In this document: in pieces, positions 1 to 16,947 of the stretch
Numbering within the stretch: position 1 is the stretch's first letter
Layout: every line of letters begins with the position of its first letter
Assembly: GCA_903929135.1 (NCBI GenBank)
Contig: CAIYTH010000054.1
Span: 1-36,895, forward strand
Origin: an uncultured Chlorobiales bacterium
Lineage (GTDB): Bacteria; Bacteroidota; Chlorobiia; Chlorobiales; Chlorobiaceae
DNA length: 36,895 nucleotides
Reading direction: 5' to 3'
The notes under the pieces: model-generated
Seen by the model: only the letters and a program-made list of their open reading frames with translations
What the model was told of the DNA's origin: nothing
Databases searched by the model: none
Program-made: the position numbers and the translations under genes

Positions 1-1574
1 GAAATGCGGGCAAGCTGCGCGATGTAGTGTTCGTTGGCTATTGCGGTCACCAGGTGACGGTTGAAGAACGCCTCGAAACGCCTGAGCCGGTTGATCTCCA
101 TGAGGATCAGGTCGTAGCGGTTCTTTGCGGCCATGTCGAGGGCGACCTTCCCGTTTTCGGCCTGGTCAGACCGACAGTTCAACTCGGCGAGATACTTGGA
201 GAGCATGATCCGGTTGGGCGCCTGGTCGTCGACGACCAGGATATGTTTTTCGTCCAGCAACTCCCGCTTGATCTGCTCGACGGTGCTGGAGTCATATGAG
301 GGTAAATCGATGACGAATTCGGTCCACTCTCCGGGCTCGGACCTGCAGACGATCGAGCCGCTGAAGGATTCGACAATCCGCCGGCAGAACGAAAGGCCGA
401 GGCCGTTTCCGCCGGATTTGCCGAAGGTGTAGAACTGGTCGAAGATCGCTTCCCGTTTGTCGATCGGTACCCCCGGTCCCTTGTCCCGGATGATGATGCG
501 GTTGCTGAATTGGCTGGTTGCCAGATCGATATCAATGCGGAATCCGGGTCGGCTGCGGTAATAGAGGGCGTTGCCGAGCAGATTGAAAAGAGTATGGGTG
601 AGCAGGTCGCGGTCGCCGAAGAAGTCGAAATCACGAGACATGTCGGTATGGACCAGAAGACGGTCTTCCGGTGCACCGAATCCGAAGTTTTCGATGGCCG
701 CCTGGACAGACTGTGCCGCCGAATGGCGCCTGAACTGCCGTCGGTCGATCTCGCTGCCGTTCAGGCTCGCCAGGATCGAATCGATGATCTTGTTGCTCCT
801 GCGGATGGTTTCATCGCCCTGGTCGATGATGTCCCTTATGCCGGTCAGTGCTGCCGAGGGAATGGTGACCACCCCTTCGTTGACGTTGTCGGTTGCACGC
901 TGTTCGGGCAGCATGGCCTTGATGGTGTCGATGGCCATGGTGATCGTGTTCAGCGGGCTTCTCATCTCATGGGCGATCGAACCGCTCAGGCTCTTCATGA
1001 GCGATAACTTGGTTTCCTGCCGCGACTGTTTCCATCTGGTGATGATGAAAAACCCCGATATGCCGTAAACAAAGGTGGGTATCATGTCAGCGTCGAGGTG
1101 TGCGTAACTGACGCTGCCGTCAAGCATGGTTACGGCAAGAAATGCCAACAGGTAGGCGATCGGTATGCAGATGGAGAGGATGACCAGGTCCTGTACGATG
1201 GTGATAATCAAGAGCGTGCTGATCAGCCCTGCCGGTATGGACCATGCTATCTGCCATTCGCTTTTCATGACCATGAACAGGTCATAGAAATTGGCGTAAA
1301 GGGCCAGGTAGCCGACGAAATAGAGGGGAAATCTCTGCCTGAATGGCCGGGGCATCGAACGGTACAGACTCAATGGCAGGGCAAACACCACCGTCATGCT
1401 CTTCAGGATGAGGTTGTCATATGCCTCATAGATGTGGAGACTCCAGAGGACGCTGGTCAGAATCTGCCAGAAGATGATGAAATGTCCGATGCTCGGGATG
1501 TTCGGCTCATTGTTGTCGATTACCGCTTCCGCCCGGCGCTTCAGGTTTTTGATCATGTTGTTCATGGTCATCAT
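1..1574 (-). CDS. CqsS-like hybrid histidine kinase, copy 1 (3' end outside window; receiver broken)
   Basis: Membrane sensor kinase paralogous to the two genes to its right. Numbered from the Met at 1565 that aligns with the paralogs, it has a multi-helix membrane sensor (about 25-175), HisKA with the H-box SIAHEMRSPLN (His199), an HATPase_c domain with DKGPG-type and GLGLSFCRR motifs, and the first part of a receiver. The sensor aligns with Vibrio CqsS: EWQIAW keeps the Trp equivalent to CqsS W104, but S107 is replaced by Pro111 and F162 by Tyr167. The receiver follows the paralogs up to YDLILM, then reads EINRLRRFEAFFNRHL instead of DIEMPVLNG, so the phosphoacceptor Asp is lost and the rest is unrelated up to the window edge. 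Start could be 1574, 1571 or 1565; no clear ribosome site is visible. The sensing role is inferred from homology; whether this copy signals is doubtful. Confidence 0.85.
   Translation of the reverse strand, partial: MMTMNNMIKNLKRRAEAVIDNNEPNIPSIGHFIIFWQILTSVLWSLHIYEAYDNLILKSMTVVFALPLSLYRSMPRPFRQRFPLYFVGYLALYANFYDLFMVMKSEWQIAWSIPAGLISTLLIITIVQDLVILSICIPIAYLLAFLAVTMLDGSVSYAHLDADMIPTFVYGISGFFIITRWKQSRQETKLSLMKSLSGSIAHEMRSPLNTITMAIDTIKAMLPEQRATDNVNEGVVTIPSAALTGIRDIIDQGDETIRRSNKIIDSILASLNGSEIDRRQFRRHSAAQSVQAAIENFGFGAPEDRLLVHTDMSRDFDFFGDRDLLTHTLFNLLGNALYYRSRPGFRIDIDLATSQFSNRIIIRDKGPGVPIDKREAIFDQFYTFGKSGGNGLGLSFCRRIVESFSGSIVCRSEPGEWTEFVIDLPSYDSSTVEQIKRELLDEKHILVVDDQAPNRIMLSKYLAELNCRSDQAENGKVALDMAAKNRYDLILMEINRLRRFEAFFNRHLVTAIANEHYIAQLARI
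741..812. repeat. 72-bp segment identical in all three kinase genes
   Basis: The 72 bases at 741-812 recur without a mismatch at 3743-3814 and 6583-6654. They code for the end of the HisKA dimerisation region (IIDSILASLNGSEIDRRQF part). Flanking kinase DNA is also very similar, while the sensor-coding DNA differs widely. Direct repeats of this length in the same orientation are good substrates for gene conversion and deletion. Confidence 0.85.
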
Positions 1575-1585
1575 CAGCTTTTGTT

Positions 1586-1747
1586 CTATGATGTAACGCC
1601 TGTTTTCTCGATGATGAGCGCATGGAATACCGAAACCCGCGGAATGATGATCATGCCGAGGCAGGGAAACATGCTTTCAGGCTGGCTGACGACTGCCCCG
1701 GCACGTTGTATCAGGTGGTGTACGTTGATGTTGGAGACGGTTCTCAT
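1586..1747 (-). pseudogene. N-terminal stub of a fourth CqsS-like kinase
   Basis: Just upstream of copy 1, in another frame, about 53 codons read like the first residues of the paralogs. The pattern LIQRAGAVVSQPESMFPCLG lines up with copy 2 (LRARAEAVFSQ, then a hydrophobic stretch) and ends with VFHALI before a stop at 1586. Copy 1 has its own complete N-terminus after this, so the stub is an extra copy and not a frameshifted start. DNA further upstream (1780-1878) also matches the region upstream of copy 2. It looks like what remains of a receptor gene whose body was deleted by recombination between paralogs. Translation as a short leader cannot be excluded. Confidence 0.55.
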
Positions 1748-1779
1748 CAGGATCTGCTTGGTTACGGTAATCCTGCTTC

Positions 1780-1878
1780 CCGGATCAGACCACAGAGCCA
1801 ATGGTAAAAAAGAGGGGCGTTGGGAACAACGGTCTAAGGATAAGTCAGGGGGCTTTGAAGGAAAGCATGAACCTTTCA
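1780..1878 (-). repeat. Duplicated upstream region of the kinase genes
   Basis: Two blocks here match the DNA in front of copy 2. CCGGATCAGACCACAGA (1780-1796) resembles 4605-4621. The stretch starting CAGGGGG and containing GGAAAGCAT (1846-1878) resembles 4675-4708. Order and spacing are the same in both places. The duplication unit therefore included promoter or leader DNA as well as the coding region. Confidence 0.55.
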
Positions 1879-1899
1879 GAGCCTTTGTGCGGCATTCGC

Positions 1900-1935
1900 T
1901 TTCATGTTTGATATATAATATAATGTATTGAATTC
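1900..1935 (-). promoter_or_regulatory. AT-rich block, probable promoter of kinase copy 1 / stub
   Basis: A TATATAATATAATG-rich block stands out from the surrounding GC-rich DNA, between the end of copy 2 and the stub. A similar block (4730-4785) lies in front of copy 2. The position upstream of minus-strand genes suggests a promoter; no exact -35/-10 pair is claimed. Confidence 0.35.
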
Positions 1936-2026
1936 ATACTTTACGGTGAAAAATTTGACTGTGCCCGCTGATTCGCGGGGAGCGTTCGGGGAGGAGGGCA
2001 GCTCATTCATGCAGCAATTCTGGATA

Positions 2027-4573
2027 CTATGATCTGGTCTTCTTTTCGAAATCGGAAAAGTTTGAAAGAGCGGCTGCCGTGAGTTCATAGCTGCTGCGGA
2101 GGTATTCGATCCAGCCGTCTTCAGGGCATTCCCGGTTTCGCAGCGAGTCGTTCATGCTGGTGGCAATAGTCTGTATTCTGGCAGCTCCGATGCTGGCGGC
2201 CGATCCCTTGAGGGTATGGCTCGAACGACTTGCATTCTCATGATCGTTCTGGAGACAGGCTTTTCCGATCTCTTCGACCAGTCTGCCGGCATCCTGCACG
2301 AAGAGGTTGAAAAGCTGTTTGATAAAGACTTCGTCACCCAGTTCCTTTAGGCTTTCGAGGATTGATGGATCGAGCAGGGGAACCTGCTCCATTTCAAGCC
2401 ATGGTTTATTCCTGGACGTTGTATCGTAAGGACCAGACGGTGCATATCGAACCGTTTCGGTCAGCAGGGTCGAGATGACATTGACCAGTTCGTGCTTGTG
2501 TACCGGTTTTCCCAGATGGACGTTGATGCCGGATTTCTTCGCCGCCATAACGCTCTCCTCGTCGGTGTATCCGCTGAGGGAGATGATCGGCACTTCCCGG
2601 AAACGCCCTGCAGTGCCGCTCCTGATCGCCTTTGTGGTTTCGATGCCGCCCATGACGGGCATCTCCAGGTCCATGATGATCAGGTCGATCGTCTTCTGCC
2701 GGAGCATCTCGATGGTCGCCATGCCGTCTTCGGCCTGGAATATCCGGTAGCCGAGCGGTTCGAGGAGTGCCTTCAGAAACTCCCTGGTCATGATGTTGTC
2801 GTCGACCAGCAGGATGGAGGCTCCGGGCACGCCGGTCATGGGCATGTCGTTCATGCTGGATTTTTCCAGGAAAAAGCAGCTCTCCAGAAGCGCTTTGACC
2901 TGCGCTTTACCAAGCGGCTTGAGGATATAGTCGTCCATGCCGGAGTGCAGGGTCCGACGTATGGCTTCGTTTTCGGCAAGGCCCGTGACGCCGATGATCG
3001 GGATCTCCCGGTAATGCAGCGCCATGGCAGGGTCGATCTCCTTGCCGGCCCTGAGCTGCCGGACGGCTTCGTCGCCGTTGAGCACAGGCATTTCGATATC
3101 CATGAGGATCAGGTCGTAGCGGTTCTTTGCGGCCATGTCGAGGGCGACCTTCCCGTTTTCGGCCTGGTCAGACCGGCAGTTCATCTCGGCGAGATACTTG
3201 CAGAGCATGATCCTGTTGGGCGCCTGGTCGTCGACAACCAGAATCTCTTTGCCGGACAGCAGTTCCCTTTTGATCTGCTCGACTTCGTTCGAGTCATATG
3301 AAGGCAATCCGATGACGAATTCGGTCCACTCTCCGGGCTCGGACCTGCAGACGATCGAGCCGCCGAATGATTCGGCAACCCGCCTGCAGAACGAAAGGCC
3401 GAGACCGTTGCCGCCAGATTTGCCGAAGGTGTAGAACTGGTCGAAGATCGCTTCCTGTTTGTCGATCGGTACCCCCGGGCCGTTATCCCTGACGATGATG
3501 CGGTTTTCATGCTGGTCGGTTTCCAGGCCGATATCAATGCGGAATCCGGGCTTGCTGCGGTAATAGAGGGCGTTGCCGAGAAGGTTGAACAGGGTATGGG
3601 TGAGCAGGTCGCGGTCGCCGAAGAAGTCGAAATCATTCGACAGGTCGGAATGGATCAGGATGTGGTCTTCCGGTGCAGCGAATCCGTAGTTTTCGATGGC
3701 TGCCTGGACGGCCATTGCCGCAGAGAGACGCCTGAATTGTCGTCGGTCGATCTCGCTGCCGTTCAGGCTCGCCAGGATCGAATCGATGATCTTGTTGCTC
3801 CTGCGGATGGTTTCGTCGCCCTGGTCGATGATGTCCCTGATGCCGGTCAGTGCTGCCGAGGGAACGGCGACCGCCCCATCGTTGGCATTACCGGTGTCAC
3901 GCTGTTCGGGCAGCATGGCCTTGATGGCGTCGATAGCCAGGGTGATCGTGTTCAGGGGGCTTCTCATCTCGTGGGCGATCGTTCCGCTCAGGCTTTTCAT
4001 GAGCGTTACCCGGTTATCCTGGTGTGCCTGCTTGCCTCGGGTGACGAGAACGCAGCCACTGGTGCCGAAGAGGAAAATCGTCAGGTAGAGGGGATCGAAG
4101 TACCGGTAACTCACAGCACCGTCCTGGAGGGTGACGGCCATATGCGCAAATGCGTATGCAAGGGGAAAAAGAATGGTGATGAACAGCCAGTCGGATGCGA
4201 TGACGATGAACATCTCGATACCGCAAATTGTCGCCATGACCCATATCGGATCCCATTCGTTTACCATCATCGTATAGAAGCAGAAATACGGGCATGCCAG
4301 AAGGACGTAAAACAGCAGATAAAAAGGCAAGAGTTCACGGATCGGGGATTTGATGCGGTCATGAAAGAACAGGGGAATTGCCAGGATTACCCCGACAGCC
4401 CGCAGGGTGGGGAAGTCATGGTAGCTTGGTCTGAGGATCTGGATCAGAAAGTGAAATCCCGGAAACCATACAAATGCGAAAAAACCTATAAAGGAAATTA
4501 TAGGTTTTGTTTGGCTGAAGACCGCTTCAGCCCGAGCTCTAAGTATGTTGATGACCGTATTGAGGGTACTCAT
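2027..4573 (-). CDS. CqsS-like hybrid histidine kinase, copy 2 (HisKA-HATPase-REC-REC-Hpt)
   Basis: An 848-residue sensor kinase with its own phosphorelay. Residues 25-180 form a multi-pass membrane sensor related to CqsS, the Vibrio receptor for alpha-hydroxyketone autoinducers. HisKA has GTIAHEMRSPLN with His201. HATPase_c (about 310-425) has DNGPG and GLGLSFC. Receiver 1 (about 443-565) has Asp448/449, Asp492 and Lys552. Receiver 2 (about 586-705) has Asp591/592, Asp635 and Lys689. The C-terminal Hpt carries SHTLKGSAASIG with His786. In the ligand pocket the Trp equivalent to CqsS W104 is kept (Trp111) and so is F162 (Phe169), but S107 is Ala114. I chose the ATG at 4573; a GTG at 4618 would add 15 residues. 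It lies 281 bases behind copy 3 with an AT-rich block between, so it probably has its own promoter. The ligand is inferred. Confidence 0.93.
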   Translation of the reverse strand: MSTLNTVINILRARAEAVFSQTKPIISFIGFFAFVWFPGFHFLIQILRPSYHDFPTLRAVGVILAIPLFFHDRIKSPIRELLPFYLLFYVLLACPYFCFYTMMVNEWDPIWVMATICGIEMFIVIASDWLFITILFPLAYAFAHMAVTLQDGAVSYRYFDPLYLTIFLFGTSGCVLVTRGKQAHQDNRVTLMKSLSGTIAHEMRSPLNTITLAIDAIKAMLPEQRDTGNANDGAVAVPSAALTGIRDIIDQGDETIRRSNKIIDSILASLNGSEIDRRQFRRLSAAMAVQAAIENYGFAAPEDHILIHSDLSNDFDFFGDRDLLTHTLFNLLGNALYYRSKPGFRIDIGLETDQHENRIIVRDNGPGVPIDKQEAIFDQFYTFGKSGGNGLGLSFCRRVAESFGGSIVCRSEPGEWTEFVIGLPSYDSNEVEQIKRELLSGKEILVVDDQAPNRIMLCKYLAEMNCRSDQAENGKVALDMAAKNRYDLILMDIEMPVLNGDEAVRQLRAGKEIDPAMALHYREIPIIGVTGLAENEAIRRTLHSGMDDYILKPLGKAQVKALLESCFFLEKSSMNDMPMTGVPGASILLVDDNIMTREFLKALLEPLGYRIFQAEDGMATIEMLRQKTIDLIIMDLEMPVMGGIETTKAIRSGTAGRFREVPIISLSGYTDEESVMAAKKSGINVHLGKPVHKHELVNVISTLLTETVRYAPSGPYDTTSRNKPWLEMEQVPLLDPSILESLKELGDEVFIKQLFNLFVQDAGRLVEEIGKACLQNDHENASRSSHTLKGSAASIGAARIQTIATSMNDSLRNRECPEDGWIEYLRSSYELTAAALSNFSDFEKKTRS

Positions 4574-4854
4574 CCGGATTTGACCTAGAGTTTGATCATG
4601 CCACCCGGATATGACCACAGACTGAAGGCCGTAAAAGAAACAGCCGTTTTAATACAGCAGTCTATGGGGAGCTTCAGGGGGTTTTAATGGAAAGCATACG
4701 CTTTTCAACCACTTAATGCAGCGCATGATTTTATAAAAAATATATAAAACGAATTGATGAATTTATATATAAAAAATAAAGAGGCTTGCTGTTCGGGAAG
4801 GGTTGAAGGGACAAACGGCAGACTATGAACTGAACGGCATCGGCTCCACGCAAA
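4574..4854. promoter_or_regulatory. Intergenic region with AT-rich promoter block for kinase copy 2
   Basis: 281 bases between copy 3 and copy 2. The stretch around 4730-4785 is almost entirely A/T with several TATATAAA-like hexamers, in sharp contrast to the coding DNA. The part nearest copy 2 (4605-4708) is the duplicated leader also found in front of the fourth-receptor stub. I see no gene here. Promoter function on the minus strand is inference. Confidence 0.35.
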
Positions 4855-7413
4855 TCATACCGGGGGAGTGACCATTGTTTGTTGTTCAGGGCCGGCGTAG
4901 TTCGAAAAAATCTCGGACGTGAGTTCGTAGACCTGCCGGAGGTAAGCCATCCAGCCTTCGTCGGGGTATTTCAGGTTTCGCAGCGAGTCGTTCATGCTGG
5001 CGGCAACAGCCTCGATTCTGGCTGCCCCGATGCTGGCAGCCGACCCCTTGAGGGTGTGGCTCGTACGCTGGGCATTGTCATGATCGTTCTGCCGGCATGC
5101 CTTTTCCATCTCTCCCACAAGTCTGCCGGCATCCTGTACGAAGAGGTTGAAAAGCTGTTTGAGAAAATCATCGTCGCCAAGTCCCTGAAGGCTTTCGATG
5201 ATGGACTGGTCCATCAGGGGGATCTTCTCCATCTCAAGCCACGGTGAATTTGCGGCCAGATCGTCATCCGTGTCCGATTGTCCGTTCCGCAACGTCTGGG
5301 TCAGCAGGGTCGAGATGACGTTGACCAGTTCGAGCTTGCGCACCGGCTTGCCAAGATGGACGTTGATGCCGGATTCCTTTGCGGCCGCAACGCTCTCTTC
5401 GTCGGTGTACCCGCTGAGGGAGATGATCGGCACTTCCCTGAAGCGTCCGGCATTTCCGTTCCTGATCGCCTTTGTGGTTTCGATCCCCCCCATGACCGGC
5501 ATCTCCAGGTCCATGATGATCAGGTCGATCGGCGATTGCCTGAGGATTTCGATGGTCGCCATGCCGTCTTCAGCCTGGAATATCCTGTAGCCGAGCGGTT
5601 CGAGGAGAGCCTTGAGAAACTCCCTCGTCATGATGTTGTCGTCGACCAGCAGGATGGACGCTCCGGGCACCCCGGTCATGGGCATCTCATCTCCTTTGAG
5701 TTTTTCCGTAAAGAAACTGCTTTCGACAAGCTCTTTGACCTGTGCTCTTCCGATCGGCTTGAGGATGTAGTCGTTCATACCGGAGTGCAGGGTCCGGCGT
5801 ATGGCCTGGTTTTCGGGAAGTGCCGTAATGCCGATGATCGGTATCTCCTTGTAGTGCAGTGCCATGGATGGTTCGATCTCCTTGCCGGCCCTGAGTTGCC
5901 GGACGGCTTCGTCGCCGTTCAGCACGGGCATCTCGATATCCATGAGGATCAGGTCGTACCGGTTCTTCGCAGCCATGTCGAGGGCGACCTTTCCGTTTTC
6001 GGCCTGATCAGGCCGGCAGTTCATCTCATTGAGATACTTGCAGAGCATGATCCTGTTGGGCGCCTGGTCGTCGACGACCAGGATAAGTTTTTCGGCCAGC
6101 ATCTCCCGTTTGATCACCTCGACTCCGTTCGAGTCGTAAGAGGGCAGGTTGATGACGAATTCGGTCCACTCACCGAGGGTGGACCTGCAGACGATCGATC
6201 CACCGAAGGATTCGGCAACCCTCCGGCAGAACGAAAGGCCGAGGCCATTGCCGCCGGATTTGCCGTAAGTGTAGAACTGGTCGAAGATCGCTTCCCGTTT
6301 GTCGACCGGTACCCCCGGTCCCTTGTCCCGGATGATGATGCGGTTGCCGTGCTGGTCGGTTTCCAGATTGATATCAATGCGGAATCCAGGCTTGCTACGG
6401 TAATAGAGGGCGTTGCCGAGAAGGTTGAACAGGGTATGGGTGAGCAGGTCGCGGTCGCCGAGGAAGTCGAAATCACGAGATACGTCGGTATGGACCAGGA
6501 TGCGGTCTTCCGGTGCACCGAATCCGAAGTTTTCGATGGCTGCGATGACGGTTTGTGCTGCAGCGAGTCGTTTGAACTGGCGTCGGTCGATCTCGCTGCC
6601 GTTCAGGCTCGCCAGGATCGAATCGATGATCTTGTTGCTCCTGCGGATGGTTTCGTCGCCCTGGTCGATGATGTCCCGGATGCCGCTCAGGGCTGCCGAG
6701 GGAATGGTGACGGACCCGTCGTTGCCGCTGTCGGCTTCACGCTGTTCAGGCAGCATGGCCTTGATGGCGTCGATGGCCAGGGTAATGGTGTTGAGCGGGC
6801 TTCTCATCTCGTGGGCGATCGTTCCGCTCAGGCTCTTCATGAGCGATAACTTGGTCGCATGGCGGAAATGCGTCCATCGGGTACCGATAAGGCTGCCGGT
6901 TATACCGAAAACAAAGATGGGCAGGTAGGCCCATTGCATATGGGTATAGCTGACCCCTCCGTCGAGCATGGTCACGGTGAGATGGGCAAGACCATAGGCC
7001 AAAGTCAACAGGATGCCGATCAGCAACCAGTCGTAGACAAACGGGATTATGACCAGCAAGCCGCAAAGAGTCGACATTGCCCACACTTCGGACCACCCGT
7101 TCTTCATCGTCATGAAGAAAAAGAAAAACGGAGAAGATAATAGGATGAAAAACAGATAATAGGGGGGATAGAATCCGGGCAGAGAGCCTTTAAGACGCAT
7201 GTAGAACACGAAAGGGAGCGCCATCGCAGCTTGGATAATGCGCAACGGGAGGTTTTCATACGGTTGGGGAATCAGGTAACCCCATATAAAATAACAGACT
7301 ATCTGCCAGATTACGCAAAAAGCCCCTAATGCAGGTATCAGCGGCTCCGAGTGCTCGAAGACTGATATGGTCCGATGATGAAGGGTATCGATCATTTTTC
7401 TGTAATCGATCAT
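4855..7413 (-). CDS. CqsS-like hybrid histidine kinase, copy 3 (HisKA-HATPase-REC-REC-Hpt)
   Basis: An 852-residue paralog and the one closest to Vibrio CqsS. The sensor region has PYENLPLR, NGWSEVWAMS and WAYLPIFVF, matching CqsS PQSYENLGLR, NDWSTIWAMS and WQYIPIFLF. Trp111, Ser114 and Phe169 correspond to CqsS W104, S107 and F162, reported determinants of CAI-1 recognition; CqsS C170 is replaced by Ile176. Then follow HisKA (His201), HATPase_c, two receivers with the Asp and Lys residues of active domains, and a C-terminal Hpt with HTLKGSAASIG. Start at 7413 is supported by AAAAGGA four bases upstream of the ATG. CqsS itself has one receiver and passes phosphate to a separate Hpt protein, LuxU; here the Hpt is built in. 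No autoinducer synthase gene (CqsA/LqsA type) is in the window. Confidence 0.94.
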   Translation of the reverse strand: MIDYRKMIDTLHHRTISVFEHSEPLIPALGAFCVIWQIVCYFIWGYLIPQPYENLPLRIIQAAMALPFVFYMRLKGSLPGFYPPYYLFFILLSSPFFFFFMTMKNGWSEVWAMSTLCGLLVIIPFVYDWLLIGILLTLAYGLAHLTVTMLDGGVSYTHMQWAYLPIFVFGITGSLIGTRWTHFRHATKLSLMKSLSGTIAHEMRSPLNTITLAIDAIKAMLPEQREADSGNDGSVTIPSAALSGIRDIIDQGDETIRRSNKIIDSILASLNGSEIDRRQFKRLAAAQTVIAAIENFGFGAPEDRILVHTDVSRDFDFLGDRDLLTHTLFNLLGNALYYRSKPGFRIDINLETDQHGNRIIIRDKGPGVPVDKREAIFDQFYTYGKSGGNGLGLSFCRRVAESFGGSIVCRSTLGEWTEFVINLPSYDSNGVEVIKREMLAEKLILVVDDQAPNRIMLCKYLNEMNCRPDQAENGKVALDMAAKNRYDLILMDIEMPVLNGDEAVRQLRAGKEIEPSMALHYKEIPIIGITALPENQAIRRTLHSGMNDYILKPIGRAQVKELVESSFFTEKLKGDEMPMTGVPGASILLVDDNIMTREFLKALLEPLGYRIFQAEDGMATIEILRQSPIDLIIMDLEMPVMGGIETTKAIRNGNAGRFREVPIISLSGYTDEESVAAAKESGINVHLGKPVRKLELVNVISTLLTQTLRNGQSDTDDDLAANSPWLEMEKIPLMDQSIIESLQGLGDDDFLKQLFNLFVQDAGRLVGEMEKACRQNDHDNAQRTSHTLKGSAASIGAARIEAVAASMNDSLRNLKYPDEGWMAYLRQVYELTSEIFSNYAGPEQQTMVTPPV

Positions 7414-8288: not shown

Positions 8289-9494
8289 ATGTGCGTTTCC
8301 CCCACCAGAATACCTGACATGTATGGCGCCTTGCTGTTGACTGCTGCGCTGCTGCTCCCTTCGGTCAACATCGCCTATGCAGATGCTCCCCCCGAACATG
8401 CGACCGTCGGATTGAAATACCTGAATTATCAGGACAGCCAGTCTGGCGACACGTCAATCACCCGGGGAATGACAAGGGACAGGATCGCGGTCAATGCCCT
8501 GACGCTTGAAAGTCAGGTACCCATCGCCGGAAAATGGCTGATCGGGGCGACCTTGCTTGAAGACTCGATAACCGGAGCATCGCCGGCCTACCACTCTTCC
8601 GGTTTTCCTGCTGCCGCTCATGATGCAGCATCCGGAGCATCGGGAGAACTGCGTCATGCCGGCGACCTGTCGGTTACCCGATATTTGCAGGGCGGCAGCG
8701 TTACCGGTGGGGTCAGCTACTCCCGGGAGTCAGACTACATCTCCCGAGGGTATTCCCTTCGGGGCAACCTTTCCACGGATGATAAAAATACCACGTTCAC
8801 CCTTGGAGCAGGTTTCAATGACGACACTGTCGATCTCAACCGTCAGGCAGTCATCGCTTCGAAACGGCAGGTTGAGCCTGGCAAAAAGCATATATACACC
8901 GGCATTGTCGGTCTGACGCGGGTGCTGACGAAGAGTGATATCGTGCAGCTTAATGTCGGTTATGCCAACGGCAACGGTTATTACAGCGATCCTTACAAGG
9001 ATCCGGACAGGCGTCCCGAGGTGCGCAACATGACGACGCTCATGACACGCTGGAACCACCATTTTGAGGGGACCGAAGGTACGGTCCGGCTGGCCTATCG
9101 CTATTATTCAGATACGTTCGGCATTCGTGCCCACACCATGGATGTGGAGTATGTTCAGCCACTGCATCGAGGCTGGACGGTTACACCTCTTTTAAGGATG
9201 CATTCCCAGAAAGAGGCGGATTTTTACCTGGCGACCAACACGGCATCTCCGTCCGATCCGACGCCGGTGCCTGCAACTGCGGTGTATTACTCGGAAGACC
9301 AGCGCCTGTCGGCGTTCGGCGCGCTGACCCTCGGCATCAAGTTCGGGAAAGCTCTGGGGCGGAGCTGGCTTGCAGATGTGAAATATGAACATTACGAGCA
9401 GCACGGCTCCTGGTGCATGAACGGACATGGTGACCCGGGTGTGGCCACGTTCATCGCCAGAAGCGTTCAACTCGGTATTTCCCGGGAATTCTGA
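8289..9494 (+). CDS. DUF3570 family outer-membrane-type protein
   Basis: A 401-residue protein with an N-terminal signal peptide (MYGALLLTAALLLP, cleavage near NIAYADA). The family pattern is clear: KYLNYQDSQ near the mature start, ITGASPAYH, DLSVTRYL, ESDYISRGYS, NTTFTLGAGFNDD, TRWNHHFEGTEGT, YRYYSDTFGIRAH, QRLSAFGALTLG, and a last beta strand ending VQLGISREF. The terminal Phe and alternating strands suggest a beta-barrel in the outer membrane. DUF3570 genes commonly sit beside a DUF4266 lipoprotein, a thioredoxin-like protein and an ApbE flavin transferase; none of these is here, so the gene is isolated. The first ATG (8289) precedes a rather polar stretch; the ATG at 8319 gives a cleaner signal peptide. 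Molecular function is unknown. Confidence 0.88.
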   Translation: MCVSPTRIPDMYGALLLTAALLLPSVNIAYADAPPEHATVGLKYLNYQDSQSGDTSITRGMTRDRIAVNALTLESQVPIAGKWLIGATLLEDSITGASPAYHSSGFPAAAHDAASGASGELRHAGDLSVTRYLQGGSVTGGVSYSRESDYISRGYSLRGNLSTDDKNTTFTLGAGFNDDTVDLNRQAVIASKRQVEPGKKHIYTGIVGLTRVLTKSDIVQLNVGYANGNGYYSDPYKDPDRRPEVRNMTTLMTRWNHHFEGTEGTVRLAYRYYSDTFGIRAHTMDVEYVQPLHRGWTVTPLLRMHSQKEADFYLATNTASPSDPTPVPATAVYYSEDQRLSAFGALTLGIKFGKALGRSWLADVKYEHYEQHGSWCMNGHGDPGVATFIARSVQLGISREF

Positions 9495-12663: not shown

Positions 12664-14166
12664 CTACAGACCTGCTTTTTTTCTCGCCTCCTGGTCGTGT
12701 TGCCATCCTCCGCCAAGAGCTACGTAGAGTGCGGTCGTGTCCTGAAGCTGCCGGGCCTGTGCCTGCAGGTATCCGATTTTTGCCTGGCGGTACTGGATGT
12801 CCGCGAGAATTACCGGCACATAACTCACCGACCCGGCCTTGTAATTTGCCTGGACAAGGTCCAGGGAGAGTCGTGCATCATCGATGGCGCGGCTTTCGGC
12901 CTGCAACAGTTCGGTGTCGTGTTCGATGGCGCGGATGAGATCTGCGACCTGGGCGAAGGCGGCAAGAACGGTCTGCCTGTAGAGCGCCCTTGACTGATCC
13001 CTTGAGTAGATTGCCGACCGACGCTTCGCGTTGAGCGTACCGCCGTTGAGCAGCGGCTCCGTAATGTTGGCTCCTATGCCCCAGAATGTGTTTTCGCCGT
13101 CCACCAGGCCTTTCAGCACGGTACTTGAACGACCGTAGCTTCCGGAAAGTGTGAAGCTGGGAAACATGGCTGCTGTGGATGCGCCGACGGCTGCATTGGC
13201 GGCGTGAAGCTGCGCCTCGGCGGCAAGAATGTCGGGCCGCTGGCGAACCAGCTCCGATGGCAGGGAAAGGGGCAGGTGTTCTGGACGCGAAATCTCTGAC
13301 AGCCGGAGATCCGGCGTCTGCCATTCGGCCGGCGTTTTTCCGACGAGCGTCGCGAGCAGGTGTTCTGCCTGGCTCATTTTCTGCCTGACCGGGGGAATGG
13401 TGGCTTCAAGGGATGACAACTGGCCCTGAATGGACAGAACGGAGCTGTAGGCCGTCAGGCCTGCCCGATACTGTTTTTCGGCGATCGAAAGCTGCTCCTT
13501 TTCAATGGCGATCAGTTGTTCGAGCTCGTCGATCTCCGCCCGATAGGCGGCGATGGCGATGCAGGTGTTGACCATGTTTCCGGTCACCATCATGTAGGTG
13601 CCGAGTATCTGCGCCCTCTGCTGGTCGACCTGTGCGCCGAGTCCTTCCACTGCACGTCGCTGGCCTCCGAACAGGTCGAGGGAATAGCTGACCGTTGCCG
13701 AGAGGGTCGAGAGGTTGAAGATGGTGCCGGTCCTGGTGACTCCGGCTGGAGTAGACGAACTGTTCCCCCTGGACTGACCGAAGGTTGCGCTGATCTGGGG
13801 ATAAAAGATGCCGGAACCGGCACGGAGGTTCTCCTGGCTCTGCCTCAGGTTCGCCTGTGCCGCCTGGAGACCGGGATTCTCTGCCAGGCCACGAGTCACG
13901 ACAGAATCGATCTGCTTCGAATTGAACGATCGCCACCAGTTCGCCGCCGGTCCGACGCCTTCGTCGAACCGGGAAGGGCCTGTTTTTCCGGGGTAGCTGT
14001 CCCGGGAAGGCTCCTGGCGGTCGTAGGTGCCGACTTCCGGTGCATCCGGACGGACGAAGTCCGGTCCGACGGCGCATCCTGTCAGTGAGAACAGGGTGAT
14101 GCAGCCTAACGCCATCGAGGCAAAGGCCGGATGGCTTCTCCTCCGCCGCAGGACCGGAAGAGGCAT
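12664..14166 (-). CDS. TolC/NodT-type outer-membrane efflux lipoprotein
   Basis: About 500 residues. The N-terminus has a lipoprotein signal ending LTGC, followed by AVGPDFVRPDAP, a hallmark of NodT-type outer-membrane factors. Then come the repeated long helical and beta-barrel segments of the OEP family: NPGLQAAQANLRQSQENLRA, DLFGGQRRAVEGL, LPSELVRQRPDILAAEAQL and a second half repeating the pattern (GGTLNAKRR, SLDLVQANYKAG). It forms the outer-membrane channel of the exporter encoded just upstream. I chose the ATG at 14166, 4 bases after the stop of the adaptor gene; a TTG at 14214 would overlap the adaptor. Last gene of a four-gene operon. Confidence 0.9.
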   Translation of the reverse strand: MPLPVLRRRRSHPAFASMALGCITLFSLTGCAVGPDFVRPDAPEVGTYDRQEPSRDSYPGKTGPSRFDEGVGPAANWWRSFNSKQIDSVVTRGLAENPGLQAAQANLRQSQENLRAGSGIFYPQISATFGQSRGNSSSTPAGVTRTGTIFNLSTLSATVSYSLDLFGGQRRAVEGLGAQVDQQRAQILGTYMMVTGNMVNTCIAIAAYRAEIDELEQLIAIEKEQLSIAEKQYRAGLTAYSSVLSIQGQLSSLEATIPPVRQKMSQAEHLLATLVGKTPAEWQTPDLRLSEISRPEHLPLSLPSELVRQRPDILAAEAQLHAANAAVGASTAAMFPSFTLSGSYGRSSTVLKGLVDGENTFWGIGANITEPLLNGGTLNAKRRSAIYSRDQSRALYRQTVLAAFAQVADLIRAIEHDTELLQAESRAIDDARLSLDLVQANYKAGSVSYVPVILADIQYRQAKIGYLQAQARQLQDTTALYVALGGGWQHDQEARKKAGL

Positions 14167-14170
14167 GCCG

Positions 14171-15115
14171 TTATTTATGGTTTGCTGGCTGTTCACCGAT
14201 GTAGATGTCGACAAGTTGACCTGGATACAAGGTAATGGCTTTCGGCTTCTCGAAGCTGAAGATGACCGGTAGGACCCTGACGTCCACCCGTTCGGTCCTC
14301 TGGCTCGAAAGCTCGATCTTCGGGGAGACGCTCGGCTGGAATCTGACGAATTTCAGGGGTATGGTGATGCTGGTGCCGCGGATGGACATGCGTGCACTCA
14401 TCTGTGACGGGTCCGGAAGCCGCTGGATCAGGATTTCGTCGACGTAACAGCGCACGGCCAGGTCGCCGTTCATGCTGCCCATGACCAGGACCGGTGAAAA
14501 CCCGCTGGTGTAGGTGTTATAGCCTCCCTGGCTCGAAATGTAACTGCCTGTGGAGGTGTTGATCGAGAGGATCGATCCGTCGGATACCGCCTTGATGGCA
14601 TATTTGGAGAGCAGGGCGGTCGCGGCCTGGTATTGCTTCTGGGCGAGCTCGAGACCTGCCTTCGCTGTCCCGACGGCATGTTCGGCAGTGTCGAGTGCGT
14701 CCCTGCTCACGGATCTGGGGTCGAGATCCCATGAGGCTTTCAGCTTGCCGAATTGTGCCTGCATGTTTGCCTGGTTAGCCTTTGCCACATCGACCTGGGC
14801 TTTGGCCGCTTCGGTCGTGGCCTTCTGCACGGAGTCGTCGAGGATCAGCAGCGGCGTACCTGCCCTGACTTTCTGCCCTTCTGAAACGAGAATTTTCAGC
14901 ACGGTGCCCGATACTTCGGGATAGATGCTGACGTTGGCCCCGTTCGACTGGGCGCTTTCGATGATGCCGTTGGCATAAATGCCTTTTGGATAAGGGTTCG
15001 ATGCCGGTTTGAAGAGCGGAGGCTGCGGATTTGACTGTATTCTCATGAAAAACGCGCTTCCGGCGCCGAGAAGGATGCCGAGTACGGCGATTCCGACCAG
15101 GATTTTATTTCTCAT
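14171..15115 (-). CDS. HlyD/DevB-type membrane-fusion adaptor
   Basis: A 314-residue periplasmic adaptor linking the inner-membrane ABC pump to the outer-membrane channel. One N-terminal membrane helix (ILVGIAVLGILLGAGSAFF) anchors it. The biotinyl-lipoyl halves are split as usual: VSIYPEVSGTVLKILVSEGQ on one side and the distal half around SDGSILSINTSTGSYIS on the other. Between them is a coiled-coil hairpin (about 95-165) rich in Ala, Gln and Lys. A beta-barrel domain follows (VRCYVDEILIQRL). Its start overlaps the end of the ATPase gene by 11 bases, so translation is probably coupled. Confidence 0.9.
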   Translation of the reverse strand: MRNKILVGIAVLGILLGAGSAFFMRIQSNPQPPLFKPASNPYPKGIYANGIIESAQSNGANVSIYPEVSGTVLKILVSEGQKVRAGTPLLILDDSVQKATTEAAKAQVDVAKANQANMQAQFGKLKASWDLDPRSVSRDALDTAEHAVGTAKAGLELAQKQYQAATALLSKYAIKAVSDGSILSINTSTGSYISSQGGYNTYTSGFSPVLVMGSMNGDLAVRCYVDEILIQRLPDPSQMSARMSIRGTSITIPLKFVRFQPSVSPKIELSSQRTERVDVRVLPVIFSFEKPKAITLYPGQLVDIYIGEQPANHK

Positions 15116-15809
15116 TCAGGTGATTGTTTTCAAGTCCGGTGATTTTACCGTCCTCCATTTTCATGATCCTGTCGGCGTATTCGTAGATGCGACTGTCATG
15201 GGTGACGATGATGATGCACCTTTTTTCGTTGAGTATGTTGGTCTTGACGAACTCCACGATCTTGCGGCCGGTATCTCCGTCAAGCGAGGCCGTCGGCTCG
15301 TCGAAAATCAGGATGTCCGGCTGTCCGACGATCGCCCGGGCAATGGCAACCCGCTGCTGCTCGCCGCCGCTCAGATTGACAGGCTGAAGCTCGGCCCGGT
15401 CCTTCAGCCCTACGATCTGCAGGTACTCCAGTGCAAGCCTCAGTGCCTGGTTCCACTCCATTTTTTTCAGGATGAGCGGAATGGCCACGTTTTCGACGGT
15501 GGACAATCGGGGGAAAAGGTGGTAGTCCTGAAAGACGAATCCGAGCTTGTTCAGGCGGAGGTCGGCGAGTTCATCGTCAGTCATGGCCCAGAGGTCCCTG
15601 CCCTCGATGGTCACCTGGCCGCCGTTCGGCTTCAGTATGCCTGAAATCATGCTCAGCAGGGTGGTTTTTCCGCTGCCTGACGGACCGACGATATAGAGCA
15701 TCTCCCCATAATGTGCTTCGAAATTCGCGTCCTTTACAGCCTGTGTGCGGGCCTCGCCTTCTCCGAACCATTTTTCGAGGTTGCTGGCCCTGATCACGCA
15801 ATCGTCCAT
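15105..15809 (-). CDS. ABC exporter ATPase (LolD/MacB/DevA family)
   Basis: A 234-residue ATP-binding subunit powering the exporter. Walker A is GPSGSGKTT, the signature is LSGGEQQRVAIARAI, Walker B with the catalytic Glu is ILIFDEPTASLDG, and the switch His is in IIVTHDSRI. The Q-loop lies in LGFVFQDYHLFP. Length and motifs place it with the LolD/MacB/DevA group that works with FtsX-type permeases. The gene starts one base after the stop of the permease gene and overlaps the adaptor gene, so all are one operon. Confidence 0.93.
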   Translation of the reverse strand: MDDCVIRASNLEKWFGEGEARTQAVKDANFEAHYGEMLYIVGPSGSGKTTLLSMISGILKPNGGQVTIEGRDLWAMTDDELADLRLNKLGFVFQDYHLFPRLSTVENVAIPLILKKMEWNQALRLALEYLQIVGLKDRAELQPVNLSGGEQQRVAIARAIVGQPDILIFDEPTASLDGDTGRKIVEFVKTNILNEKRCIIIVTHDSRIYEYADRIMKMEDGKITGLENNHLNEK

Positions 15810-15810
15810 A

Positions 15811-16947
15811 TCAACCCCTGAAGATGTCGAATGGTTGTATCTGGAGCACCTTTCTCACGCCGATATAGCTCGAAACGCCGGCGATGATGGTCACCATGAC
15901 AAGGGCGAAGGCGAGAATGGTGAAGGTGATCTGTGCTGCATAATCCGGCATGCGCAGCTTGGCGAGCATCATGAAGGAGGATGCGGCTCCGACGCCGAGC
16001 CCGTAACCGATCAGCGAGGTGAAAAAAGCCTGGAACATGATCATGGAAATCAGTTCGCGTCCTTTTGCACCGATGGCTTTCATGGCGCCGAATTTTTCCA
16101 GGTTCTCGAGAATAAACGTATAGAAGGTCTGGCCCGAGATGGAAAGGCCGACGATGAAGCTGATGGTCGTCATGAGCAGGATGTTCATGCCCATGCCGGT
16201 CTTGAAGGTGTAGAAATCGGAAATCTTTTTCACGAACTGCTCACGGGTCAGGGCCTGATAGCCCAGTTTCGCGATTTCACGCTGAATTCGGGGGATGTCG
16301 GTCTCGCTTTTCGGTTCGATCAGGACGTAGGATGTCGTGAAGCGTGTCGAAGGGATGTAGGTGATCGCCCGGTTGAACGTCGTATAGAGCGTCGGGACAC
16401 CGAAAAGGCCGGATGAGGCGACCTTGGCGATACCGACCACGAGTCCCCGGTTGTCGTTGATCTCGAACTCTGAGCCCAGCTTCGGGTTTTCGAGCTTGTT
16501 GAACTCAGCATCCTTCACGATGAGGAACGCATTCTCGGCGAATATGTCTTCGATTTTACCTTCGAGCAGCTCCGGCCTGCCAAAGAGCGTGGCATCGTCG
16601 AGTCCGATGACGGTAACTCCCTGAAAGTTGCCGTTCCTGAGCTTGACCTGTGCTCCGCCGTAGTAGAGCGGGACCGCATATTTCACGCCATTGATGCTTC
16701 GAGCCGTCGAAAGAACGTAATCGGGCATCGGAATGCTGCTGACGGTATTGTTCACGGCAGGGTCCATGACCCAGATTCTTGCGCCGATGTTGTACACGGG
16801 AGCACAGGACTTGGAGAGGATACCCGAAAACATCGACATCATCATGACCATCAGAAACACGGCGAACGTGATGCCGACGAGCAGGGCAGTGAACTTGCTC
16901 TTGTCGTTCACGAGCAGTTTAAGCGCTATTCTGTAGATGCCGGACAC
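15811..16947 (-). CDS. ABC exporter permease (FtsX/DevC type)
   Basis: A 378-residue permease. It has the four-helix FtsX plan: one helix near the N-terminus (FTALLVGITFAVFLMVMMM, about 19-40), a large periplasmic domain (about 45-255), and three helices at the C-terminus (about 255-290, 305-335, 345-365). The conserved LEKFGAMKAIGA coupling segment sits between helices 2 and 3 as in DevC and MacB. It ends with QIQPFDIFRG, typical of DevC. First gene of the exporter operon with ATPase, HlyD adaptor and TolC-like channel. DevBCA pumps export glycolipids in cyanobacteria and related systems export peptides or drugs; the substrate here cannot be told from sequence. Confidence 0.9.
   Translation of the reverse strand: MSGIYRIALKLLVNDKSKFTALLVGITFAVFLMVMMMSMFSGILSKSCAPVYNIGARIWVMDPAVNNTVSSIPMPDYVLSTARSINGVKYAVPLYYGGAQVKLRNGNFQGVTVIGLDDATLFGRPELLEGKIEDIFAENAFLIVKDAEFNKLENPKLGSEFEINDNRGLVVGIAKVASSGLFGVPTLYTTFNRAITYIPSTRFTTSYVLIEPKSETDIPRIQREIAKLGYQALTREQFVKKISDFYTFKTGMGMNILLMTTISFIVGLSISGQTFYTFILENLEKFGAMKAIGAKGRELISMIMFQAFFTSLIGYGLGVGAASSFMMLAKLRMPDYAAQITFTILAFALVMVTIIAGVSSYIGVRKVLQIQPFDIFRG

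Follow-up and report, generated by a model that had tools for sequence, protein, structure and literature searches.

Why does a green sulfur bacterium carry three CqsS-like receptor kinases side by side, and whose signals could they perceive? The question is raised by the window analysed here, a stretch of 36,895 nucleotides that makes up an entire contig (C54) of a Chlorobiaceae genome of 2.14 Mb, assembled in 62 contigs and 91.7% complete. It is well supported that the locus is a real array of CqsS-family receptors. The explanation that we favour on balance is that the array is a receptor bank without a synthase, derived from a cqsA–cqsS pair, in which three inputs feed one shared output.

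Organization of the array

A sequence-only reading of this DNA had recognized three adjacent hybrid kinases in what looked like a green sulfur bacterium, with several receptors placed side by side. The assignment of the host to the Chlorobiaceae and the finding of three tandem kinases agree with it: the kinases are consecutive open reading frames on the minus strand, with Pfam kinase, receiver and Hpt domains, copy 1 being incomplete. The features of the window are as follows:

1..95, no strand assigned: contig end foreign to copy 1, an apparent chimeric piece, alanine-dehydrogenase-like (junction approximate)
96..1574, minus strand: copy 1, CqsS-like hybrid kinase, N-terminal part of about 493 aa (sensor, HisKA, HATPase and the start of REC1)
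2027..4618, minus strand: copy 2, CqsS-like hybrid kinase of 863 aa, with a GTG start and homology from about residue 16
4855..7413, minus strand: copy 3, CqsS-like hybrid histidine kinase of 852 aa (6TM sensor, HisKA, HATPase, REC, REC, Hpt)
6850..7413, minus strand: sensor domain of copy 3, residues 1-188 (AlphaFold and Vibrionaceae CqsS sensor profile)
7072..7074, minus strand: codon of copy 3 Ser114, equivalent to S107 of V. cholerae CqsS, the head-group specificity position in TM4
8289..9494, plus strand: DUF3570 protein, divergent neighbour of the array, at the place of cqsA in cqsA-bearing relatives

The HATPase, two receivers and the Hpt domain are detected by Pfam in copies 2 and 3, and the HATPase and the first half of a receiver (29.6 bits against a cut-off of 30.2) in copy 1. 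Each of the three has the IAHEMR H-box together with motifs N, G1 and G2. HisKA scores about 20 bits in them, under its cut-off of 26.9, and V. harveyi CqsS, at 22 bits, likewise falls short of it. By Pfam and by these motifs, the array has the kinase core and receiver of CqsS, with a REC and an Hpt in addition.

The reading frame of copy 1 in the window covers positions 3-1574 of the minus strand. An alanine-dehydrogenase-like gene, so named from reading the protein rather than from a family search, lies on another contig of the same genome (C41) and matches bases 10-95 with 83% identity; the first 95 bases or thereabouts therefore appear chimeric. On the basis of this match, a chimeric contig end was preferred to an insertion within copy 1. 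The rest of copy 1 is probably the 350-aa frame with REC, REC and Hpt at the right end of contig C22. It is assigned to copy 1 because amidotransferase and photolyase genes follow it, the same genes that follow the third array kinase in G007, which belongs to the same genus.

Sensor homology to CqsS

A profile built from 36 Vibrionaceae CqsS sensors, with the kinase part left out, matched the isolated sensors of copy 3 (E=3e-35), copy 2 (8.7e-22) and copy 1 (4.2e-15), as well as that of a fourth CqsS-like copy of this genome, on C33 (2.7e-29). When a set of 1575 proteins was searched, the profile matched none of the eight reversed control sensors even with E values of up to 100 allowed. Together, these results indicate that the resemblance is more than chance. 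The earlier claim that the membrane sensors themselves align with Vibrio CqsS is thereby upheld for the isolated domains, the matches to LuxN, TorS and ArcB falling only in the kinase, receiver and Hpt parts. The motifs that it had listed for copy 3 are all present (PYENLPLR, WSEVWAMS and WAYLPIFVF), and the catalytic histidine is found at residue 201 versus 194 in CqsS, with the proposed offset of +7, the numbering being that of V. mimicus CqsS, which here represents V. cholerae. Of the three copies, only the third bears the CqsS signature strongly: of the 29 sensor columns with at least 85% conservation across 32 CqsA-adjacent receptors, 22 are kept in copy 3, 20 in the C33 copy and 13 in each of copies 1 and 2.

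The sensors had been described as seven-transmembrane domains. The AlphaFold model of copy 3, the one copy modelled, has six transmembrane helices instead (residues 4-47, 55-69, 82-104, 109-126, 129-151 and 163-210; mean pLDDT 91.4), the sixth continuing into the H-box helix. Its sensor gave no match in a PHROGs scan and none at E<=0.001 with Foldseek against the PDB; the best TM score among the 50 matches listed, about 0.45 (ImcA), allows no interpretation. An alignment of the sensors yielded three matches to sequences of solved structures; all lie at the H-box end and none has an E below 0.16.

Concerted evolution of the three copies

Within the array, the sensors are 32-37% identical, whereas the kinases reach 84-86% and the receivers 85-93%; the Hpt domains of copies 2 and 3 share 73%. 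The three array kinases of G007 are 53-60% identical among themselves. In a sensor tree of 75 rows (SH-aLRT only), each copy pairs with one kinase of G007, one-to-one and in gene order (copy 1 with L123_8001, copy 2 with L123_5075 and copy 3 with L123_2459), while in the corresponding kinase tree, also of 75 rows and with SH-aLRT only, copies 1, 2 and 3 cluster together. More careful trees of 19 rows gave the sensor pairs supports of 100/99, 98/94 and, for the copy 3 pair, 93/92 (not starred), and the kinase group of the three copies 95/96. The AU test rejected a sensor clade of the three copies (p=3.8e-7) and, for the kinases, each of the three cross-species pairs (p=2.5e-4 to 8.1e-4). The dS of the kinases is 0.28-0.32 and the synonymous sites of the sensors are near saturation, with differences at 18-22 of 93-98 four-fold sites in the kinases and at 18-20 of 28-29 in the sensors.

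These data, the AU tests included, support concerted evolution: the kinase halves of copies 1-3 have been homogenised, most simply by gene conversion confined to that half, and the sensors kept apart. Instead of gene conversion, the genes may have been duplicated again and their sensors replaced. Among 13 CqsA-linked pairs from Chlorobi whose kinases are 80-90% identical, sensor identity is 78-88%, as against the 32-38% of the array. Between the two species, orthologous array pairs share 60-63% of the kinase and 43-49% of the sensor, and CqsA-linked pairs with kinases 58-64% identical have a mean sensor identity of 50% (range 38-70%). Array sensor divergence therefore lies within the CqsA-linked range, so that its rate does not imply new ligands and an acceleration between species is unsupported.

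A different view of the same divergence is that the receptors are decaying orphans that have drifted since cqsA was lost, the sensors being under relaxed constraint and binding no ligand. Sensors much more divergent than kinases would fit such a decay, as would the 13 of 29 conserved columns held by copies 1 and 2. So would the state of the array in G007, where the first copy (L123:2459-7255) has Asn for the catalytic His (IANEMK) and the second (726 aa) has no Hpt, losses which indicate that array members can lose parts. However, copies 2 and 3 keep open frames with the H, N, G1, G2, REC and Hpt motifs, the sensors show ordered one-to-one identity across two species despite homogenisation, and the W104 position is Trp in all of the 122 distinct family members compared. 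We consider decay unlikely.

Locus comparison and the probable absence of CqsA

From a scan of genome contigs, 80 loci were taken of 308 stretches encoding a relative, some of them cut by contig ends. Among the matches listed, 38 loci carry Chlorobi titles, with CqsA beside the receptor in at least 23; the amidotransferase is also found in at least 10 of these 23, and the photolyase too in at least seven. The order cqsA, cqsS, amidotransferase and photolyase is present in at least seven relatives (L127, L128, L130, L136, L146, L149 and L150). At the G007 array (L123), the order is DUF3570, three kinases, amidotransferase and photolyase, with no cqsA at the site, and the DUF3570 protein is a 67% identical counterpart, at the same place, of the one in the window. 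This genome and G007 are the only two with the receptor array among the matches listed. The comparison suggests that, in an ancestor common with G007, the cqsS gene of a cqsA/cqsS/amidotransferase/photolyase locus gave rise to three tandem copies, and that cqsA went from the array site in that same ancestor.

No CqsA/LqsA synthase passed the NF005526 cut-off in this genome, where two matches reached 182 bits against 428; nine of the 61 genomes searched have a CqsA above it. A cqsA remnant was not detected in the window (best tblastn E=0.35), nor was a CqsA near the parts on C22, C33 and C48 in the stretches examined. With a genome 91.7% complete, absence of the synthase is likely, if unproven. 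Sensor matches occur in 23 of the 61 genomes, including all nine with CqsA and all 14 with AfsA, and three of the 23 have neither. At 100 bits or more, nine genomes retain a match, of which four (G000, G004, G017 and G019) have no CqsA over the cut-off, three of these being 98-99% complete.

Ordinary self-signalling would place cqsA in the unassembled part of the genome, with several receptors serving quorum sensing as in Vibrio. The incompleteness of the assembly leaves room for it, and G007 combines the same array with two CqsA genes on other contigs, away from the array, so that an array need not imply non-production. Nevertheless, no CqsA exceeds the family cut-off, the sequence here covers the place where relatives have cqsA and shows no such gene, and four of the nine genomes with the stronger sensor matches have no CqsA either, which makes self-signalling quite unlikely. 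As regards the earlier proposal of quorum sensing by CAI-1-like molecules, the tandem receptors stand; quorum sensing of the cell's own product is not supported, given the lack of a synthase over the cut-off, and neither is a CAI-1-like specificity of all three receptors, since the head-group Ser is found in copy 3 only. The same reading had said that the lack of a synthase in both the genome and its community partners would speak against it: the genome has none over the cut-off, and relatives have one.

CqsA directly upstream of a CqsS-like kinase was also seen in L161, L162, L163 and L169, from metagenome-assembled genomes titled Rickettsia typhi, Alphaproteobacteria, Rickettsiales and Proteobacteria, titles that are perhaps misassigned.

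The head-group position of the sensor

In V. cholerae CqsS, W104 and S107 set the specificity for the head group of the ligand and C170 that for tail length, according to PMC3376566; PMC3285556 gives a C170/F175 rule for the tail. Trp is kept at the W104 position in the three array copies. At the S107 position, copy 3 has Ser114 and copies 2 and 1 have Ala, with a one-residue insertion nearby in copy 1; among the other copies of the genome, C33 has Thr and the AfsA-linked kinase has Trp. The C170 position is Gly in copy 3, Val in copy 2 and Ile in copy 1. On these residues, copy 3 is most likely a receptor for alpha-hydroxyketones of other cells, and copies 1 and 2 are predicted to be retuned, with a preference for other head groups.

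Over 140 rows, duplicates included, the S107 position is Ser in 70/70 CqsA-adjacent receptors and Trp in 14/14 AfsA-adjacent ones. Removal of duplicates leaves Ser in 64/64 and Trp in 14/14, and another duplicate filter leaves 64 CqsA and 13 AfsA rows. With duplicates again included, receptors next to a methyltransferase gene have Cys (three) or Ala (one), the one next to a ketosynthase gene has Ala, and those with no recognised neighbour have 29 S, 9 A, 5 W, 4 T, 2 C and 2 Y. Residue sets are disjoint between CqsA- and AfsA-linked rows in five of 417 columns, and the S107 position alone is fixed on both sides. In the shorter kinase type (four CqsA-linked versus 14 AfsA-linked rows), 16 of 417 columns are disjoint and columns 44, 114 and 217 are all fixed on both sides, so the position is not unique within that type. 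A phylogenetic control of the link between residue and synthase found two independent pairs, each in the expected direction (p=0.5 in a sign test), which means that the 64/64 versus 14/14 pattern reflects few events. Since the receptor residue goes with the neighbouring synthase, ligand class might be predictable from sequence.

AfsA genes and other partners of CqsS-like kinases

A further run of genes was noted in this genome:

L023:2369-6758 (own contig C48): AfsA-domain gene, flavin amine-oxidase-like gene and 713-aa CqsS-like kinase

The AfsA-domain gene, two genes before this fifth CqsS-like kinase, passes PF03756 (112.7 bits against a cut-off of 24) and fails the ScbA/BarX gamma-butyrolactone synthase model NF041195 (37.4 bits against 200). 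From its gene content, the run is a candidate for an alternative signal system. PF03756 is found in 15 copies in 14 of the 61 genomes, and in all 15 the flavoenzyme gene comes next, with a full kinase gene behind it in 14 cases and, in the remaining one, a kinase match that the contig end truncates. LpxD accompanies nine AfsA loci within the same stretch, as well as four CqsA loci that share their kinase type (L076, L080, L085 and L090). Near lpxD-prs, where some genomes of the genus have AfsA and the flavoenzyme, the latter four have CqsA in their place, and the receptor has Ser, not Trp, at the S107 position. Their CqsA proteins form one clade (99) beside the CqsA of G007, inside other Chlorobiaceae CqsA.

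The array could then hear the product of the AfsA-type gene of its own genome instead of alpha-hydroxyketones, that gene being the sole candidate signal synthase found in the genome adjoining a CqsS-like kinase. We regard this as decidedly improbable, because Trp occupies the S107 position in 14/14 AfsA-adjacent receptors, compared with Ser, Ala and Ala in the array, and because, in the sensor tree, the array belongs with the CqsA-linked and Vibrio receptors to a group of 53 rows with a support of 99, outside which the AfsA-linked ones lie.

Other neighbours were observed in the wider family. A single stretch, L077:905-12652, holds two tandem AfsA-flavoenzyme-kinase cassettes, and a third kinase there has Ser at the S107 position. 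A protein of 464-483 aa precedes the CqsS-like kinase in L083, L116, L118 and L121, where the S107 position is Ala or Cys; Pfam assigns the L083 and L116 proteins a leucine carboxyl methyltransferase domain, with thioesterase matched only weakly and under the cut-off. This protein is possibly a third type of synthase. On a Paraburkholderia caribensis plasmid (L102:2813-6562), a ketoacyl-synthase-III-like gene lies immediately 5´ of a CqsS-like kinase, and Rhodanobacter and Dyella plasmids (L218, L219 and L221) carry a CqsS-like kinase and a hypothetical gene of about 320 aa beside a helicase gene. The CqsS-like plasmid matches fall into Vibrio, Rhodanobacter, Dyella, Tistrella, Cupriavidus and Paraburkholderia groups, and all but three Vibrio records were taken in; the AfsA protein of G003 gave no match against plasmids.

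It is tentatively proposed that CqsS is one branch of a receptor platform with an exchangeable partner synthase, where a single TM4 residue would tell which partner is used: Ser for CqsA, Trp for AfsA with the flavoenzyme, and Ala or Cys for the methyltransferase. If this were true, membrane kinases of Gram-negative phototrophs would receive AfsA-type molecules as signals, and the array, with Ser, Ala and Ala, would be a bank tuned to several such chemistries. The wider family hints that green sulfur bacteria may use an AfsA-based signal. A literature search for AfsA joined with CqsS or with quorum sensing found no such report, and one for AfsA in Chlorobi found nothing relevant by title.

Relation to known systems and proposed signalling

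The array resembles Vibrionaceae CqsS in its sensor, in the PYEN, W104/S107 and PIFxF positions (copy 3), and in the order of kinase core and receiver. It differs in being tandem, in having no cqsA neighbour and in the Ala at the S107 position of copies 1 and 2. Pfam finds a single receiver and no Hpt in V. harveyi CqsS, but a pair of receivers plus an Hpt in copies 2 and 3. With the Chlorobiaceae cqsA–cqsS pair, it shares the locus (in at least seven relatives) and the REC-REC-Hpt kinase (checked in L127 and L134), but the pair is made of one synthase and one receptor and the array site of three receptors and no synthase. In Legionella, the receptors LqsS and LqsT outnumber the synthases, one being an orphan receptor of the family, a surplus that likens them to the array by description, not by sequence. 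Streptomyces AfsA/ScbA and the C48 gene have the PF03756 domain in common; the Streptomyces receptors are cytoplasmic repressors, while the C48 gene is paired with a CqsS-like membrane kinase.

A generic membrane kinase, LuxN- or TorS-like, alike in the kinase part alone and unrelated to alpha-hydroxyketone sensing, is hardly credible: the LuxN, TorS and ArcB models are indeed the best NCBIfam matches, but they cover nothing outside the kinase, receivers and Hpt and score far under their cut-offs, V. harveyi CqsS has the same LuxN top match, and the sensor-only profile matches are strong. The LuxN model NF041945 gave the array kinases 171-269 bits, failing its curated cut-off of 1550. For V. 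harveyi CqsS, too, the LuxN top match is below the cut-off and a CqsS model is not listed, and a LuxN or TorS identity taken from NCBIfam was rejected for this identical result.

Under the favoured explanation, a synthase-less receptor bank, the three sensors would have diverged and stayed distinct since the ancestor common with G007, pairing in order with its sensors, and the kinase-receiver halves would have been re-homogenised in this genome, most simply by gene conversion. Distinct sensors on homogenised kinases suggest three membrane inputs wired to one output. Each 6TM sensor would take up a small hydrophobic signal in a TM4/TM6 pocket, and binding would shift the balance between kinase and phosphatase. 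Phosphate would pass from His201 (in copy 3) to the receiver, to Hpt and then to a common putative response regulator; sigma-54 activator domains gave 11 matches in the genome, seven of them above 220 bits, and none is tied to the array. In copy 3, which keeps the residues for an alpha-hydroxyketone or enaminone head group, the likely ligands are CAI-1-type molecules from other green sulfur bacteria. The Ala at the head-group position of copies 1 and 2 would make them prefer other head groups. This suggests a cell that listens to several chemical signals, perhaps not made by itself. The array would represent a natural experiment in which receptor output is kept while the input changes, with three old, distinct sensors on a homogenised kinase.

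The occurrence of CqsS outside Vibrio, presented earlier as new, is already in print: cqsA/cqsS are reported from Chlorobium and Prosthecochloris in PMC5289986 (citing Tiaden 2010a) and PMC10158934, and CqsS-like sensors including those of Chlorobia in PMC4821796. One Prosthecochloris genome has retained cqsS and lost cqsA, as stated in PMC10158934, and the receptor-only state is therefore already known. Searches covering mainly open papers found no gene conversion of CqsS and, among the titles examined, no amplified receptor array, and those for autoinducer work on C. tepidum found nothing relevant by title. With the family already known in the phylum, the amplified, synthase-less, concerted array and the link between residue and synthase look new.

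Near the array, positions 12664-16947 of the window hold an exporter cluster with outer membrane efflux, HlyD-like, DevA/LolD-like and DevC-like genes.
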